From: Candidatus Poribacteria bacterium | GTDB lineage: Bacteria > Poribacteria > WGA-4E > WGA-3G | Direction of reading: 5' to 3' | Assembly: GCA_009841255.1 (NCBI GenBank) | Contig: VXMD01000012.1 | Coordinates: 44,717 to 108,716 of the forward strand | DNA: 64,000 bases | In this document: one piece after another, positions 44,861 through 61,160 of the stretch | How positions within the stretch are numbered: the first letter of the stretch is position 1 | Layout of the letters: each line of letters opens with the position of its first letter | Notes under the pieces: model-generated | Told to the model about the DNA's origin: nothing | Seen by the model: only the letters and a program-made list of their open reading frames with translations | The model's database searches: none | Made by a program: the position numbers and the translations under genes

Positions 44861-45557
44861 TTATTTTTTCAGTACCTCGTGCGGATTTAACCAGTAGTTG
44901 AGTTTGACCATGAATACATTCTCCGCTGGCGCATCGAAGAGTGTTCCGATGTCATCGTCGAGGTTGAACTCCCCAATAAGATCGATATGTTGACGCCCCT
45001 GCGACCAGACAACGAAGAGCGTTGAACCCAAGCGGTGTGACACCTTTGAGGTTCACACCGAACTGAAACGCGGTCCGCTTATCGTTGTATGAGTCGATTG
45101 CGACATGGACCCACGCGGAGAAGGATTCCTGGTCGCGTCGTGTGAGCTGCCCTTCGATTGCACTCGGATCTGTGTCGAAGGCGCGGAATGCTACATAGAG
45201 TACATCGTTGCCGTATAGGACGCGGACTTCAGTGCGTTCGGAGGCTGGCGAACCCTCATCTGGCACTAGCTGCACGAAACCTGTTGCAACGGGTGCGTGT
45301 TCCCACACATCTTCGTCGAGGTTGCCATCTATGCGGGGTGGTGTGCCTGTTAGTTTCGCGGCTGTCAGCACTGGCGGGGAATTTGTGGAAGTATCGTCTT
45401 GTGCCGAGCTATGAAGGGGGGTACATAATAGAATTAAAAGGACTGTCCCGATGAATACAATACGTTCAAAGTTGTAATGGAAAGTAGGGAATAGAAGCAT
45501 TTCTGACAGTCTTTGGTTTGATTGGCAAGTGCTCATAATTGATCTTAATTTTCGCAT
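44861..45557 (-). pseudogene. DUF5916/CBM9-like protein with internal deletion
   Basis: The 201-residue frame (44952-45557) starts with a signal peptide and a CBM9-like domain (PPRIDGNLDEDVWEHAP, VRVLYGNDVLYVAFRAFD, TAFQFGVNLKGV), the N-terminal part of DUF5916 proteins. It then runs into bases that, in the next frame (44861-45043), read HRLGSTLFVVWSQGRQ to NYWLNP, the typical DUF5916 C-terminus. The central barrel of several hundred residues is missing, and the two ends are joined out of frame. A consensus promoter remains upstream (45556-45583), so the true start is downstream of 45557. Confidence 0.8.
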
Positions 45558-45583: not shown

Positions 45584-45746
45584 GAAAAAAGCGGATTATA
45601 GCACAAAATAGTGTTACAATCCGCCATGTGTAAGGATAAGGTTAGAAACCACGACCATAGAAACCGTGGCGTGTTCTATTTTTTAGTTCCTTTTTCGTTA
45701 AAAAAGAAAAAACTGTGAGTTTCGTCGTAAAGAGCGGTGCCCGTCT

Positions 45747-46631
45747 TCATTGTTTGAGCTGTGCCCATGTCGTCGTGAGTTTGCCTTGGGGTTCGACTGC
45801 GAGTGTGGTATTTCCAGTCTTCGCGCCATTTTTACCCACCAGATGGTGTGCGTTGGCCGATGCATCTGAGAATTTCCGTGTGCCGCTCGGTTCATCAAAA
45901 TGCCACAACGCAAGCGTTTTTGCGTCATCCTTGAACTTTCCGCGCGGCGTGAAACCGTTTTTATCCACATCGTAGCGAGCAACTGTCGAGATACGGACCT
46001 CATCAATACATCCCGCAAAGGAACCCCGAAAGTAGTCTTTGCCAATCTCAATTTTCTCTCCAAACCCTCCAAGTGTGAAATCCTGTGGATGCTTGAGGTG
46101 TGAAAGATCGTCTCTCAGCGTTACGCCTTGTGGTACTGTCTTTGCGAGATCGTTGACAATGGTTGCCGTCTGTCTCCCTTTCGCCTGATATGCGATGTGA
46201 TTCCATTGATTCGGGGAAAGTGCTATCGGGGAGAATGGTGTCCCAGCGGGCTTTCCTCCAGCCGTAATATGCGCTCGCATTATTAGGAATAAATCCCCCT
46301 TCTGCCAATCAATGCGTTTCTTTATCTCCCTCCATCCCTCGCTATCGTTCGCGGCGCGCATTTCCACCTGTTGGCTGAGAATCATGGCATATACGTTCTC
46401 GCCAGGCGGTGTGGTCAGATAGACCCACGCTTCAACAGTGAATTCGTCTGTGCCTTTTGGCAAGAGGACACCGAAGGTTTTAAAGTCTAAGACCGCATAG
46501 TCGTCTATTCCATCAAGGACTAAGTAGTTTCCACCTGCGGGGGAAGGCGGTGGAAATGCTTCAGCACTCAACGGGATTAATGTAAGCAAAAAGATGCAAG
46601 CAAAAAGATGCAGATTTTGTAAATGTCTCAT
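45747..46631 (-). CDS. Secreted LamG/concanavalin-like protein
   Basis: 294 residues. A signal peptide ends near AEAFPPP (residue 25). The single domain is a LamG-type jelly roll: YLVLDGIDDYAVLD, FTVEAWVYL, WNHIAYQAKGRQ, FAGCIDEVRIST and LALWHFDE are the usual strands. Such domains bind glycans or other extracellular ligands. AAGGAG lies about 11 bases before the ATG. Confidence 0.85.
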   Translation of the reverse strand: MRHLQNLHLFACIFLLTLIPLSAEAFPPPSPAGGNYLVLDGIDDYAVLDFKTFGVLLPKGTDEFTVEAWVYLTTPPGENVYAMILSQQVEMRAANDSEGWREIKKRIDWQKGDLFLIMRAHITAGGKPAGTPFSPIALSPNQWNHIAYQAKGRQTATIVNDLAKTVPQGVTLRDDLSHLKHPQDFTLGGFGEKIEIGKDYFRGSFAGCIDEVRISTVARYDVDKNGFTPRGKFKDDAKTLALWHFDEPSGTRKFSDASANAHHLVGKNGAKTGNTTLAVEPQGKLTTTWAQLKQ

Positions 46632-46702: not shown

Positions 46703-49624
46703 TTATTTCTCTTCATTTTCTTCAAGCGAAATGTAAAAAAGTCCTTTCTCTTTAAGCCTTTTGACATAATCGGTAGCACTATAGAGCTTATCATTAGCAA
46801 TGGCAAGAGTCTTGATTTCATCTGGCACCCCTGAAAAAATCTGTTCCCATTGCATCTGCGTATCCAAACGATAGCCGCCAGCATCGCCGATACCATAAAC
46901 TGTGCTACTATCTACAGCAAACCGACTTATGATGGGACGCCCTCCTGTGCTATCGGTGAGCACGCGCCACCGTTCCTCGGTTTGAGAAACCATGACACCA
47001 TTATCTGTTGCGACGTAAAGGGTTGTCCCTATAAAGACTATATCGTTGAAGCGAGTGAAGCGGAGCGGTAGGCTTGGTGTGACATCTCTCCAACTCCCTC
47101 CTTCATCAAACGACTGAAACAACTTACCCTCCCGTTTACCCACGTAGACGGTTTCTCCTGAAACCGCTAATTTGAATCCTTTTCTGAAATTGCTAAAAGG
47201 TAAAGGGAGATGACTCCCATCTACCAATCCAGTGCTTGTCCACTCCGAATCACCCAGTTTCCATTTGAAGAGCTCGCCTCGGTATTCTACATAAAAGGTA
47301 TCACGACTCGCCGCAGCAGTCTCAGCTTTGAGACGATCTACATGAAGATCTTCTTTTTCTTTTGACTTATGATATTTTTCATAGTCAAGTTTTTTACGAT
47401 CGAAAATAGGGACACCTTGAACTGGAATTAGCATATCACCATTAGGAGATAAACGGAAAATACTCAAATTGTCCCCTACACTTGACAGAGAATAAAGAAT
47501 GTCGTCAACAGGTATTAGTTTTGACGCATAACTCAACCGGGTAGTGGGGATGTTGAGTACAACTTCCTGCCCATGATTCCAAAGTTTTTTCCAAGACACA
47601 CCACCATCTGTTGATTGATAAACTTCATATCCGGTATGGGCGTATAAGCTATTGTTAAACGCGACGAGATCAACTACAATAGTTCCGATCACGCCATTCA
47701 TAAATGGATGCCATGATTCACCTCCATCCGTCGTGCGGTGAATGCCCCATATACTCGCTTTGTAATACGTTCTTTCGTTCACCATTACAGCTGGAAGGCG
47801 ACTCCTCCCCAAATAGTTCTGATCCTTTTCAAGTTCTGTCCATGTTTGTCCACCATCTGTTGAACGAGATTGGGCGTAACTCAATGCCAAGAGCGTTTTA
47901 CCCCTTGCTAAAACCGTTATACCTGCGGGCGAGATTTTGCGAAGGTGTTCACTTCGAAGCTTTATTTTACTCCACGACGCTCCCAAGTCAGCTGAATGAA
48001 ATATCTCGGTAAAATGTAAATTTCCGTGATCTATCTGTTGTAACTCCGTTCGCGTTAATCTCACCAATACTTCATGCCCCATCCCAGCATAAAGATCGGT
48101 TCCAGAAACTGCCAAGGAACAGACGGCTCCCGATGTATTCAATGGCAGTTTTTCCCAGATACCTGAATCGAGACGGTAGAGACCGTTCTCTGTCCCGGCA
48201 AAAACCGTTTTGCCAACAGTAGTCATTGCGGAAATTTTTTCCGCTGTCAATCCATCGTTTAGAGGACGCCAGTGCGCACCAGCATCTGTGGATCGGAAGA
48301 TTCCTTCATCTCTCAGTGCGAGATACATCGTAAGTGGCACTTGTCCACTGGATACCTGTTCGGCATCTGTAATGACGAGTTCAACGGCATTTCCCGAGGG
48401 TCGGGGACCCAGCGTCCTCCAAGTCTCCCCTCTGTTATCTGAAGCAAATATCTCATCGACAGCAACAATATAAAGCGTACCCCTATACTCTGCCATTGGC
48501 ATCAAAGACTCGCTAATGGAGACACTCGCGTTGACGCGTGTCCATGCAGTCGCATCTGCTGTTAATCTGTATATTCCTGTTCGTATAACAGCATAGACAG
48601 TCCCATCAGATGTAGCGAAAATATTGTGTACAGGTCCCGCTGGCGGTCCGTTTCCCTGCGACCATTGTGCGATAGAGAACCTGGTGGAATCCTCTGGTGC
48701 AGTAGACGTTGAAATTACATCAGAAATTTGCGTGCCGGCACGGCTGGCTTTACCGGGACTGGTATCCCGTCCAGTTTGATTTCGCACAGCAGGTTTCGCT
48801 ACTATATCAAGGATGATAGGGATATCAACGATTTCAATCGTGGGTTCAGATTGTGCATCGAAGCTATACGGCTTCTGGAAACGGGTGAGGTACCGGTTGC
48901 TCGCGCCGAGGAGTAAAGCGATCAAAAGCGCAGCCGCACCTAAAGCCATCCATGGAAGGAACGGTTTAGGCGCCGGAGCGGATGCGGGGTTAAGCTCAGA
49001 GACCTGCCGCATGATGTTCTCTATTACGCTTGTTGGTATTTGGACGCCGCCGAGAATCTCTTGAATTAACGCCTCCTGCTGTTCTTGTAAACGTTTTCGC
49101 GCTCGCTGGAGCCGGCTGGTAATTGTGTTCACAGATACACCTAAGAATTTGCTAATCTCCTTGGTCGTCATTTTACCGAGGTAATAGAGCGTCACGACGG
49201 TGCGTTCGCTCTCTGGGAGCTTTGCGAGCAGTCTTTTGACGAGTTCATGGTGCTGCTCGGTGCGCTCTGTTTCTCGCTGTTCTGCTACGTGGTGTGTATA
49301 AGAGACTCTCTCGATTTCTTCCACAGGTGTGTCCTCCAGCGATTGCATGACAGATTTATTTTTTTCAAGCCATTTAAGACAGAGTCGATTGGCAATGACA
49401 TACATCCAACCTAAGAGTTGATTCGGATTCCTTAGCTGCGGGAGGTTCTTGTAGACTTGGAGAAAAGTGTCTTGGGTAATCTCTTCAGCGATGTGAAAAT
49501 CCCCGATCTTTCGCCACGCAAGTGCATGAATACTGCCTTGGTATTTTTGAACTAAGGTTTCAAATGCCGTATCGTCGCCTGACAAAATTCTACGAATGAG
49601 TTGAATATCGTCTTCTCTTTCCAT
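46703..49624 (-). CDS. ECF sigma factor fused to a transmembrane BNR-type beta-propeller
   Basis: 973 residues in one uninterrupted frame. Residues 8-85 are sigma region 2 (AFETLVQKYQGSIHALAWRKIG, AEEITQDTFLQVY) and 127-182 are region 4 (LPESERTVVTLYYLGKMTTKEIS, then the helix-turn-helix VSVNTITSRLQRARKRL). A Pro-rich linker leads to a membrane helix at about 224-243. A Ser/Thr-rich linker follows, then about 650 residues of BNR/sortilin-like repeats (ASDNRGETW, RSTDAGAHW, STDGGVSWKKLW). The layout puts the sigma domain inside and a sensor propeller outside. Release of the sigma part would need proteolysis or a conformational signal. GGAG lies seven bases before the ATG. Confidence 0.9.
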   Translation of the reverse strand: MEREDDIQLIRRILSGDDTAFETLVQKYQGSIHALAWRKIGDFHIAEEITQDTFLQVYKNLPQLRNPNQLLGWMYVIANRLCLKWLEKNKSVMQSLEDTPVEEIERVSYTHHVAEQRETERTEQHHELVKRLLAKLPESERTVVTLYYLGKMTTKEISKFLGVSVNTITSRLQRARKRLQEQQEALIQEILGGVQIPTSVIENIMRQVSELNPASAPAPKPFLPWMALGAAALLIALLLGASNRYLTRFQKPYSFDAQSEPTIEIVDIPIILDIVAKPAVRNQTGRDTSPGKASRAGTQISDVISTSTAPEDSTRFSIAQWSQGNGPPAGPVHNIFATSDGTVYAVIRTGIYRLTADATAWTRVNASVSISESLMPMAEYRGTLYIVAVDEIFASDNRGETWRTLGPRPSGNAVELVITDAEQVSSGQVPLTMYLALRDEGIFRSTDAGAHWRPLNDGLTAEKISAMTTVGKTVFAGTENGLYRLDSGIWEKLPLNTSGAVCSLAVSGTDLYAGMGHEVLVRLTRTELQQIDHGNLHFTEIFHSADLGASWSKIKLRSEHLRKISPAGITVLARGKTLLALSYAQSRSTDGGQTWTELEKDQNYLGRSRLPAVMVNERTYYKASIWGIHRTTDGGESWHPFMNGVIGTIVVDLVAFNNSLYAHTGYEVYQSTDGGVSWKKLWNHGQEVVLNIPTTRLSYASKLIPVDDILYSLSSVGDNLSIFRLSPNGDMLIPVQGVPIFDRKKLDYEKYHKSKEKEDLHVDRLKAETAAASRDTFYVEYRGELFKWKLGDSEWTSTGLVDGSHLPLPFSNFRKGFKLAVSGETVYVGKREGKLFQSFDEGGSWRDVTPSLPLRFTRFNDIVFIGTTLYVATDNGVMVSQTEERWRVLTDSTGGRPIISRFAVDSSTVYGIGDAGGYRLDTQMQWEQIFSGVPDEIKTLAIANDKLYSATDYVKRLKEKGLFYISLEENEEK

Positions 49625-57909: not shown

Positions 57910-60693
57910 CTACTTCAGGATTACCATCCGACGGGTGCGTTGGAAATCGCCAGCGGAAAATGTGTAGAAATAGATACCGCTTGCGACCTTCGTTCCATAC
58001 TGGTCTCTCCCATCCCAGTATGCCGCTTTCTCTTGGCTCCGATAACTCCCCGGTGCCTGTAACCCAATATTCAATTGGCGGACAAGTCCACCGCGGACAT
58101 CATAGATTTCCAAGACAACCACCGCCTCCTCTGCCAGATCGTAGGGGAACCACGTCTCCGGGTTAAAAGGATTCGGATAATTCTGAAGAATCGCCGTCTG
58201 TTTGATATATCCGAGTGCTGAGAGCAAATGCGAGGATGGATCCACAGAGAAGGGGACATCCGCAACGCGGAATCCGAGATCAATTGGGTTATAGATAAAC
58301 GCGGAGCCTGAGTTATCACCGGCATTGTCGCTACCTAAAGCTCCGACAATAGCAAACGAGCCTTTGATCGCAACAGATGACCCGAAGAGGTCCGATCGTC
58401 TCGTGCCGGATGCCTCAATACGGCGTTTTTCTACCCAAGAGAGTCCGTCGCGTAAAAAGGAGTAAGCTGACCCTTTGTCAAGTTGCAGGGATGGATCTCC
58501 ATCGGGATCTGCCAAGGGGTGATTATCCTTCCATGCGCCAACGATTGCGGTGTCTTCATGAATTGCGACGGCTGAACCGAACTCATCTCCGGTCTCGGCG
58601 TCGCTTGCGCCTAACTTTGCCTGCTGTACCCAACCGTTTCGTGTCTCCACAAAAATATAAGCGGCTCCGATATCATCAAGGAGTCGATCTTCTTTAGGTG
58701 CGCCGATGATAGCAGCACCCTTGGTTAGATTGACAGAGTAGCCGAATTCGTCCCCAACGCTAATATCATTTGGAATCAGTAGGAGGTCTTGTGTCCACGT
58801 GCGACCATTGCGTGTAAAGAGATAGGCGGCCCCTGAATCAGGTCCTGCTGCGTCACTTCGATAGGCACCTATAAGCGCATTATCTTCATAAACCCCAACG
58901 GCAAAGCCGAACAGATCTCCGGGGACAGCCCCTTGGTGCGTCAGCTTCGCCTGTTGAGTCCAAGAGGTTCCACTCCGGACAAAGACATAAGCGGCACCGG
59001 AATCCGTGCCGATTCCGTCTTTCCCGTAGGCACCGACGATAGCCGTATCTCCGTGTACTGCGACGGCTGCCCCAAACCGATCAAAGATTTCGAGGTCATC
59101 CCCGATCAATCTCGCCTGCTGAATCCACTCCTCGCCGACTTGTACAAAAACATAAGCTGCGCCGGCTTCGGGTCCTGCCTCATCAACACCAGGCGCGCCA
59201 ACAAGGACAGTTTCACCATCCATTGCTACAGCATTCCCAAAGAGATCCCCAGCCTGTGCGTTATCAGTGGTGAGTTTTGCGCGCTGTAGCCAGAGGAAAC
59301 CACTGCGCTCAAAGATGTATGCGGCACCGGCGTTAGGTGCGATATCATCATCTTGTTGCGCGCCGGAGACAGCAAAGTTGCCACTTATAGCAACAGATAC
59401 GCCGAATTGATCCTCTGAAGCAGTCTCACCATCACTCAACTTTGCACTCTCTACCCACGAGGCACCCTCCCTTTGTCCAAAGATATATGCGGCACCCGAG
59501 GCCAATCCACCTGCATCTTGCTTCGGTGCCCCGGCGATCACTTCGTTTTCGTTTTCACCAATCGCGACAGCGAATCCGAGCTGGTCGCCACCGTTTCTAT
59601 CGGCTGCGACTAGCTTTGTATGCTGGTTCCAAAAGGGAGGCTCATTTTGTGTAAAGATATACGCGGCACCAACGACATCTTCTCCCACGTTACCGCCCGT
59701 CGCGCCAATGACAGCAGTATTGCCTCTGAGGTCAACAGAAACACCAAAAGCGGACGCGCCATCAGGATCAATCGGAATCATACGGATACGGACGCGATTT
59801 CTTTTCTGCTCCCATTCGATACCCTCGCGCTTATAGATGTAAGCGGAGCCACTGCCTCTGTTTTTAGGTGAGGTTGCAATGGCAAAATCCCCATGAACAT
59901 CAACGGCGTATCCAAAATTATCTTCCGATTCGGTATTGTTTCCGATAAGCTTCGCCTGGGGTGCCCACCCGAATTGATTCCGGACGAAAATATAAGCAGC
60001 CCCGGCATCATTTCCGGCTTCATCGTCGCGAGTCGCACCAACAATAGCGGTGTCTCCATCAATCCCAACGGAAAAGCCGAAGTACGCGAAACTGTCAGGA
60101 TCTGGAGCAGTGAGTTTGGCTGTCTGATTCCAATTTTCTCCGGTCCTTTCAAAAACGTAGGCGGAACCGCAATCTGCCAAAGGTTCATTTGAGCGATGTG
60201 CACCAACAAGCGCGGTATCTGCATCAATCGCTACCGAAATACCGAAATAATCGGCACGCGCTTCGTCAGACGCGAGGAGTTTGGCTTGTTCTATCCATTC
60301 AGTCCCTTGTCTCCTAAAGATATACGCGGCACCTGAGTTCCTTCCGACCCCATCTTTCCTCGGTGCACCAACAATGGCATAATCGCCGCTCATGGCGAGC
60401 TTCGTGCCGAATTCGTCTCCGCCCGTTGCGTCGCTAGCGGTCAGTTTTTGATGTTGAACCCACCCCGTTTCGGTACGCAGAAAGATCTGGACGGATCCAA
60501 CATTTACGCCGAAGTCGTTGTCATCTTTCGGGACACCTACCATTGCATAATCACCGCTGATCCCGACACTCGCACCGAGATTGTCTTGGAGGACCGCAGC
60601 ACTGGTGTTGAGTTGCACTCGGTCGGCACTGCTTTGCATAGCCAAGCCAACCCCGAAGAACAAGATTAATATGGTTATGTGTAGTTTTCTCAA
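57910..60693 (-). CDS. Secreted FG-GAP beta-propeller protein with FlgD-like C-terminus
   Basis: About 927 residues from TTG 60693 (GGAAAGAG just upstream); the frame runs on to 60735 through a repeat. The signal sequence is within residues 1-25 (ITILILFFGVGLAMQSSA). About 14 units of 55-60 residues follow, each of the form DEFGxSVAIxGDTAIVGA then SGAAYIFxRxGxxW, the FG-GAP type. The C-terminus has NYPNPFNPETWFPYDL and WDGRDQYGTKVASGIYFYTF, an FlgD-like domain. Probably surface-exposed. Confidence 0.88.
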   Translation of the reverse strand: MRKLHITILILFFGVGLAMQSSADRVQLNTSAAVLQDNLGASVGISGDYAMVGVPKDDNDFGVNVGSVQIFLRTETGWVQHQKLTASDATGGDEFGTKLAMSGDYAIVGAPRKDGVGRNSGAAYIFRRQGTEWIEQAKLLASDEARADYFGISVAIDADTALVGAHRSNEPLADCGSAYVFERTGENWNQTAKLTAPDPDSFAYFGFSVGIDGDTAIVGATRDDEAGNDAGAAYIFVRNQFGWAPQAKLIGNNTESEDNFGYAVDVHGDFAIATSPKNRGSGSAYIYKREGIEWEQKRNRVRIRMIPIDPDGASAFGVSVDLRGNTAVIGATGGNVGEDVVGAAYIFTQNEPPFWNQHTKLVAADRNGGDQLGFAVAIGENENEVIAGAPKQDAGGLASGAAYIFGQREGASWVESAKLSDGETASEDQFGVSVAISGNFAVSGAQQDDDIAPNAGAAYIFERSGFLWLQRAKLTTDNAQAGDLFGNAVAMDGETVLVGAPGVDEAGPEAGAAYVFVQVGEEWIQQARLIGDDLEIFDRFGAAVAVHGDTAIVGAYGKDGIGTDSGAAYVFVRSGTSWTQQAKLTHQGAVPGDLFGFAVGVYEDNALIGAYRSDAAGPDSGAAYLFTRNGRTWTQDLLLIPNDISVGDEFGYSVNLTKGAAIIGAPKEDRLLDDIGAAYIFVETRNGWVQQAKLGASDAETGDEFGSAVAIHEDTAIVGAWKDNHPLADPDGDPSLQLDKGSAYSFLRDGLSWVEKRRIEASGTRRSDLFGSSVAIKGSFAIVGALGSDNAGDNSGSAFIYNPIDLGFRVADVPFSVDPSSHLLSALGYIKQTAILQNYPNPFNPETWFPYDLAEEAVVVLEIYDVRGGLVRQLNIGLQAPGSYRSQEKAAYWDGRDQYGTKVASGIYFYTFSAGDFQRTRRMVILK

Positions 60694-60735
60694 TTCTCTT
60701 TCCTTTCGCAAGCCGCGTGTGGGCTTGCGGGACAA

Positions 60736-61160
60736 TATTAGACATTACCTGATGCCCTGAACTTACAAAAACAGGTGTGTGTTAGAGTAAACCATTTTGA
60801 TTCGCTTTGATTCGCCACATTTTTCCTCAGAATTCCGTTGTAATAAGCCTTCCTTGTCCTTATTTAAAAGTGACACAATTTATAGACAAAAAGGGTGCAT
60901 AATTTCAGGAAAACCCTTAAAATCTGAGTCTTCACCTAAAAAAATTGAACCTATCTCATAAATATCAGTTTGCCTCAGGATCCGATGCAAAAGGATGCCA
61001 AAAGTTCCCTGTAGGGATTGGTCTGATGCGTTGCCTACAGTTAGCAAATTGTATGCCACCCGTAAATCTGTATAAAATTGACAGACTTCAACCTATGGTC
61101 GACACAATTTGCGATGTGTCGTTCATTTATTGAACACTATCACCCGTAAAAGCCCCAATG
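60736..61160. other. Intergenic region of about 425 bases
   Basis: The left edge is the end of the 30-bp repeat at 60707-60736. I see no ORF with family features, no strong promoter and no palindrome of note in the rest. Confidence 0.5.

Follow-up and report, generated by a model that had tools for sequence, protein, structure and literature searches.

The window examined here, a 64-kb stretch of Candidatus Poribacteria DNA taken as a whole, carries on its minus strand one frame of 973 codons, running from an ATG at 49624 to a stop at 46703, in which an ECF sigma factor is followed by a membrane helix and a large outer part (Table 1); the preliminary description had left the strand unstated. 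The preliminary description had proposed intact sigma regions 2 and 4 in an uninterrupted frame, and both proposals hold: Pfam recognizes the two domains (Sigma70_r2 at residues 24-90, E-value 5.5e-11; Sigma70_r4_2 at residues 127-179, E-value 1.5e-16), the coordinates are exact, and orthologues at 62-83% identity retain the entire fusion with its helix, which is not the mark of a chance frame. The presence of sigma2 and sigma4 without sigma3 is the layout of ECF (sigma70 group 4) factors, and the NCBIfam sigma70-ECF match scores 93.8 bits against a cut-off of 42.9. The helix, earlier placed at about residues 224-243, is predicted as one strong helix at 222-240 (KD 2.18, estimated dG -2.7, against +2.1 for the second-best segment of the protein), and with this helix and the sigma4 helix-turn-helix in one protein the product fits the definition of a transmembrane transcription regulator. 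The positive-inside count is ambiguous in this protein alone, while the family favours an N-in orientation (3.0 versus 1.8 Lys+Arg). A possible internal start ahead of the helix, an ATG at residue 205 without a clear Shine-Dalgarno sequence, was considered and rejected.

As a rule, an ECF sigma factor is held by an anti-sigma factor that is a membrane protein of its own. No anti-sigma family was found among the neighbours of the fusion gene, in agreement with the preliminary description, and Pfam recognizes none in the fusion protein itself, including its 37-residue linker. This linker falls short of the length of a class I anti-sigma domain and, having neither Cys nor His between residues 184 and 221, lacks zinc-binding residues. 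The gene for a secreted LamG-domain protein that lies directly downstream is likely to share an operon with the fusion gene, and synteny including this gene is kept in most of the orthologues. Two other open frames were noted downstream of the LamG gene, one at 44952-45557(-), which has no Pfam match and resembles a truncated secreted protein, and another at 45698-46072(-).

Table 1. Features of the fusion gene and its surroundings in the window, with helix-free relatives from other loci
Feature	Coordinates	Strand	Basis or remark
ECF sigma - membrane helix - double beta-propeller fusion gene, 973 aa	46703..49624	-	Single frame, Pfam, orthologues
Sigma region 2, residues 24-90	49355..49555	-	Pfam PF04542
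Sigma region 4, residues 127-179	49088..49246	-	Pfam PF08281
Cytoplasmic linker, residues 184-221	48962..49075	-	Without Cys or His
Single membrane helix (predicted), residues 222-240	48905..48961	-	Hydrophobicity; near-constant spacing across the family
Conserved juxtamembrane segment, residues 242-286	48767..48901	-	RFQKPYSF.AxSEPTIEI..KPAVRNQxGR; common to paralogues with unlike sensors
First predicted beta-propeller, residues 321-637	47714..48664	-	AlphaFold model, pLDDT mostly 80-90
Second predicted beta-propeller, residues ~640-970	46715..47707	-	AlphaFold model and GH74 fold matches
ECF-type promoter (putative), AGATTATGCACG-N15-ACGTATCTTTAA	49776..49814	-	151 nt ahead of the start codon of the fusion gene
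Other ECF-type promoter site in the window (putative)	60867..60905	-	Score 20.8, matrix from another genome
Secreted FG-GAP (integrin-like) propeller protein gene	57910..60735	-	Downstream of the 60867-60905 site; candidate regulon member
Secreted LamG-domain protein gene	45747..46631	-	71 bp downstream of the fusion gene; signal-peptide-like N-terminus
Helix-free housekeeping fusions	L056:2550-4313(-), L031:3171-4742(+), L036:2544-3746(-), L035:436-4503(-)		

The outer part had been described as about 650 residues of BNR repeats; the length stands, and Pfam does find BNR/Sortilin repeats at residues 540-690, but the description is refined to two tandem beta-propellers, predicted to be most like those of GH74 xyloglucanases. 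The AlphaFold model is of good quality beyond about residue 330, whereas its sigma part is poor, and the sigma-linker-helix part modelled separately reaches a pLDDT of only 47. Residues 321-970 of the model match GH74 xyloglucanases, enzymes with two tandem seven-bladed propellers, with a Z score of about 25 over about 550 residues and an rmsd of about 9, which means that the two propeller halves match GH74 while their mutual angle does not. Taken by itself, the first propeller has many matches among single propellers (Z 22-23, rmsd 3). The fold matches also include the Bacteroides hybrid two-component glycan sensors BT4663 and BT4673, one-piece regulators with an outer double propeller, whose output is a histidine kinase and response regulator and not, as here, a sigma factor.

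In named genome records the relatives of the fusion gene all belong to Candidatus Poribacteria. The homologues, which the preliminary description had suggested comparing for the same fusion, include none that is split at the border between sigma and sensor, and a broken paralogue (L079) is interrupted within the propeller and not at the sigma border. Among the five closest orthologues omega is 0.01-0.12 for sigma2 and sigma4, which indicates strong purifying selection, and 0.22-0.39 for the propeller, where purifying selection is weaker. This constraint, the intact Pfam domains, and a family-specific ECF promoter class that tracks the sigma tree (see below) make it very improbable that the sigma domain has degenerated or been silenced, which would leave the protein as a mere membrane-bound propeller, a reading for which nothing speaks positively except that large paralogue families can include inactive copies.

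The fusion gene is, as judged by sequence comparison, one of a lineage-specific expansion with tens of paralogues per genome. A sample of 136 members sharing the N-terminal module was drawn from its own genome and two single-contig genomes (28, 70 and 38 members per genome, counted in the stretches sampled); at least 200 further residues follow the module in 131 of them, and the outer parts comprise BNR, WD40, PD40, Kelch, Reg_prop and redoxin domains. The helix is present in about 104 of the 136 members, almost without exception 36-43 residues past sigma4 and never more than 53, a near-constant distance that bears out the earlier reading of the gene as a one-piece sensor and transcription factor. 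It is followed by a juxtamembrane segment of about 45 residues in which ten positions are about 90% or more conserved whichever outer part follows (R248, F249, Q250, P252, Y253, A257, S259, E260, T262 and G285, kept in 94-101 of 106 sequences). A profile of the linker, helix and juxtamembrane segment matches 68 of 85 Poribacteria genomes, with 1 to 57 copies in every genome of the window's family, 1-3 in part of two sister families, and none in the rest of the 85. Roughly one family member in four lacks the helix and is joined to a soluble protein, which means that release from the membrane is not generally required. Some helix-free ECF modules continue in frame into additional copies of DnaN, PurC, FtsZ or an FtsZ-DnaE double, all of them housekeeping proteins; several of these junctions retain a Shine-Dalgarno-like sequence and an ATG, and stand-alone DnaN and FtsZ exist besides the fused copies. 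Two propeller fusions of genome G005, at L132:3469-6204(-) and L132:11030-13828(-), have lost the helix and would be soluble.

The comparison of upstream regions across relatives, proposed in the preliminary description as a way to the promoter motif, yielded an ECF-type motif before the fusion gene and its relatives, with the de novo family consensus ATTATGCA(A/C)(C/G), 14-15 bases, NNGCGTC(ACTAT or TTTAA), or in short form TTATGCAMS-N14/15-..GTC[TTTAA/ACTAT]. It lies ahead of 99-102 of the 136 family members; at a score of 11 it is detected in 99 of the 136 family upstream regions, in 42 of 471 neighbouring genes, including genes for secreted LamG, Kelch and PD40 proteins, and in none of 408 shuffles. 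A matrix trained on genome G005 alone recovers 40 of the 66 upstream regions in the remaining two genomes, compared with 1 of 330 shuffles. Applied to the 64-kb window, this matrix finds exactly two sites scoring above 10, the two listed in Table 1, the first of which is conserved in seven of nine aligned upstream regions amid poorly conserved DNA. The same motif is carried by ABC-2 type permease genes adjoining fusions at L043, L111 and L125. A genome search with a fixed pattern gave 31 places, against 0 for the reversed pattern; about 10 of these are ahead of ECF genes, and most of the others precede genes for secreted LamG, Kelch, PD40 and hydrolase-like proteins or for transporters. Site counts are 518 in the genus versus 47 for the control, and 19 versus 11 in the sister families, which have few copies of the module or none. 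The number of modules correlates with the number of sites (rank correlation 0.85), but this is weak evidence because the reversed-pattern control correlates too (0.71). The -10 type (TCTTTAA or TCACTAT) tracks the sigma tree with 10 changes, compared to 24 or more in shuffles, a pattern in the sequences that fits autoregulation and to which common descent contributes. These observations argue, with moderate force, that the sigma of this subfamily recognizes its own ECF promoter class; the residue-level covariation between sigma and -10 element is, after correction for descent, not enough to demonstrate recognition.

A stand-alone homologue of the fused outer part lies within two genes of the fusion in 26 of 131 cases, compared to 3.1 by permutation (maximum 8 in 200 permutations), a count already corrected from 35 of 131, which is inflated by duplicated loci. 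Most of these homologues have signal-peptide-like N-termini, which supports the location of the fused domains on the outside and so lends indirect support to the extracytoplasmic propeller of the preliminary description; a topology with sigma inside and propeller outside is strongly indicated. At one locus (L052) the stand-alone copy still has the fusion's linker and helix at its N-terminus. A C-terminal tail like TTWGxIK, perhaps a sorting signal, is found on 33 of 595 neighbouring proteins, the LamG protein of the window among them, and 23 of the 33 have a signal-peptide-like N-terminus. The exported copies next door, together with sensor parts so diverse that they include enzymes and housekeeping proteins, would suit a reading in which turnover of the fusion always yields active sigma, the propeller being exported cargo and not a sensor, and the fusion serving mainly to couple expression. 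We regard this as improbable: the WGxIK tail, frequent on stand-alone exported homologues, occurs on none of the 136 fusions, and the fused copies retain the helix and juxtamembrane segment, which implies that the anchor is selected for.

Planctomycete ECF-WD40 fusions were reportedly described by Jogler in 2012. Those of the Gemmataceae, likened to the present family by description, share with it many paralogues and the joining of an ECF factor to propeller repeats (PMC8567305). Membrane-anchored ECF fusions such as IutY and ECF52 are also already known (PMC8999054). IutY of Pseudomonas putida (ECF243) combines an ECF sigma, a membrane helix and a periplasmic part in one chain and is released by Prc and RseP (PMC8999054), but what is fused to its sigma is an anti-sigma factor from a cell-surface signalling system for iron, whereas the poribacterial fusion has its short linker, no recognizable anti-sigma domain, and a double propeller outside. 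The actinobacterial ECF48, ECF52 and ECF53 fusions (e.g. SCO4117) likewise place a membrane helix and an outer domain, in ECF52 a carbohydrate-binding domain, C-terminal to an ECF sigma, but in these a zinc-finger (ZAS-like) anti-sigma part separates the sigma from the helix, where the poribacterial linker has no Cys or His. The SigI/RsgI systems of Clostridium thermocellum resemble the family in having several sigma paralogues, outer sugar-binding sensors that are like the secreted proteins they regulate, and autoregulation (PMC4711584, PMC12203970); they differ in consisting of two genes, with sigma-I and a separate membrane anti-sigma factor bearing an RsgI_N domain, while the poribacterial system is a single gene with an ECF sigma and no anti-sigma neighbour.

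The architecture, its conservation, the expansion of the family, and the promoter class with its gene set can all be read from the sequences themselves. The explanation we favour, which taken as a whole we consider somewhat probable, is that the protein is a one-piece receptor-sigma which activates its own gene and genes for secreted proteins and is released by cleavage. The N-terminal ECF sigma would lie in the cytoplasm, the single helix would span the inner membrane, and the GH74-like double beta-propeller outside would be the sensing domain. The fusion gene would be transcribed from the ECF promoter class most probably recognized by its own subfamily, and would hence probably be autoregulated; further likely targets are the secreted LamG protein encoded downstream and additional propeller proteins that are secreted, for example the FG-GAP protein of the window. 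The ectodomain would presumably sense a ligand, upon which the juxtamembrane segment would probably be cut and an M50 (RseP-like) protease would then free the sigma. Release by cleavage is the weakest step of this proposal; it is preferred on account of the great constancy of the juxtamembrane segment and of the presence of an M50 protease, of which the genome encodes one full-length copy, although such proteases are near universal (14 of 14 control genomes), and the cleavage of IutY provides a precedent (PMC8999054).

The main rival to cleavage, which we judge rather unlikely, is that the sigma acts while bound to the membrane in the manner of ToxR or CadC, a ligand altering its clustering or orientation so that RNA polymerase is recruited near the membrane. 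Transmembrane transcription regulators are common (PMC10269533), neither a protease site nor an anti-sigma domain is recognizable, large C-terminal fusions are tolerated within the family even where no release from a membrane takes place, and some of the putative targets adjoin the fusion gene and encode exported proteins, as would suit membrane-coupled transcription. Other putative targets, however, are far from any fusion gene, IutY, the sole experimentally characterized ECF-membrane fusion activated by proteolysis, is cleaved free, and the strict juxtamembrane conservation suits a cleavage or switch site.

A partial literature search, covering titles and abstracts, returned nothing on ECF sigma factors of Poribacteria, and within that search the following are new: a one-piece design in which no anti-sigma part is recognizable, the multiplication of this design to tens of copies in Poribacteria, the juxtamembrane module that the copies have in common, and the promoter class together with the set of genes it precedes. 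Tentatively, and with rather less confidence than we place in the mechanism, we suggest that a large share of the outside-to-inside signalling of Poribacteria may run through one-piece receptor-sigma factors, present in tens per genome and combining a common membrane module with ever new outer domains, part of which would switch on a secreted copy of their own sensing domain. This phylum of sponge symbionts carries tens of receptor-sigma chains per genome, built on one membrane module with interchangeable outer domains. The family is a natural library for the question of how a tethered sigma stays off without an anti-sigma factor. With the promoter motif, target genes can be predicted directly in an uncultured symbiont; the motif also links the sensors with lectin-like and propeller proteins, which are secreted and may face the sponge.
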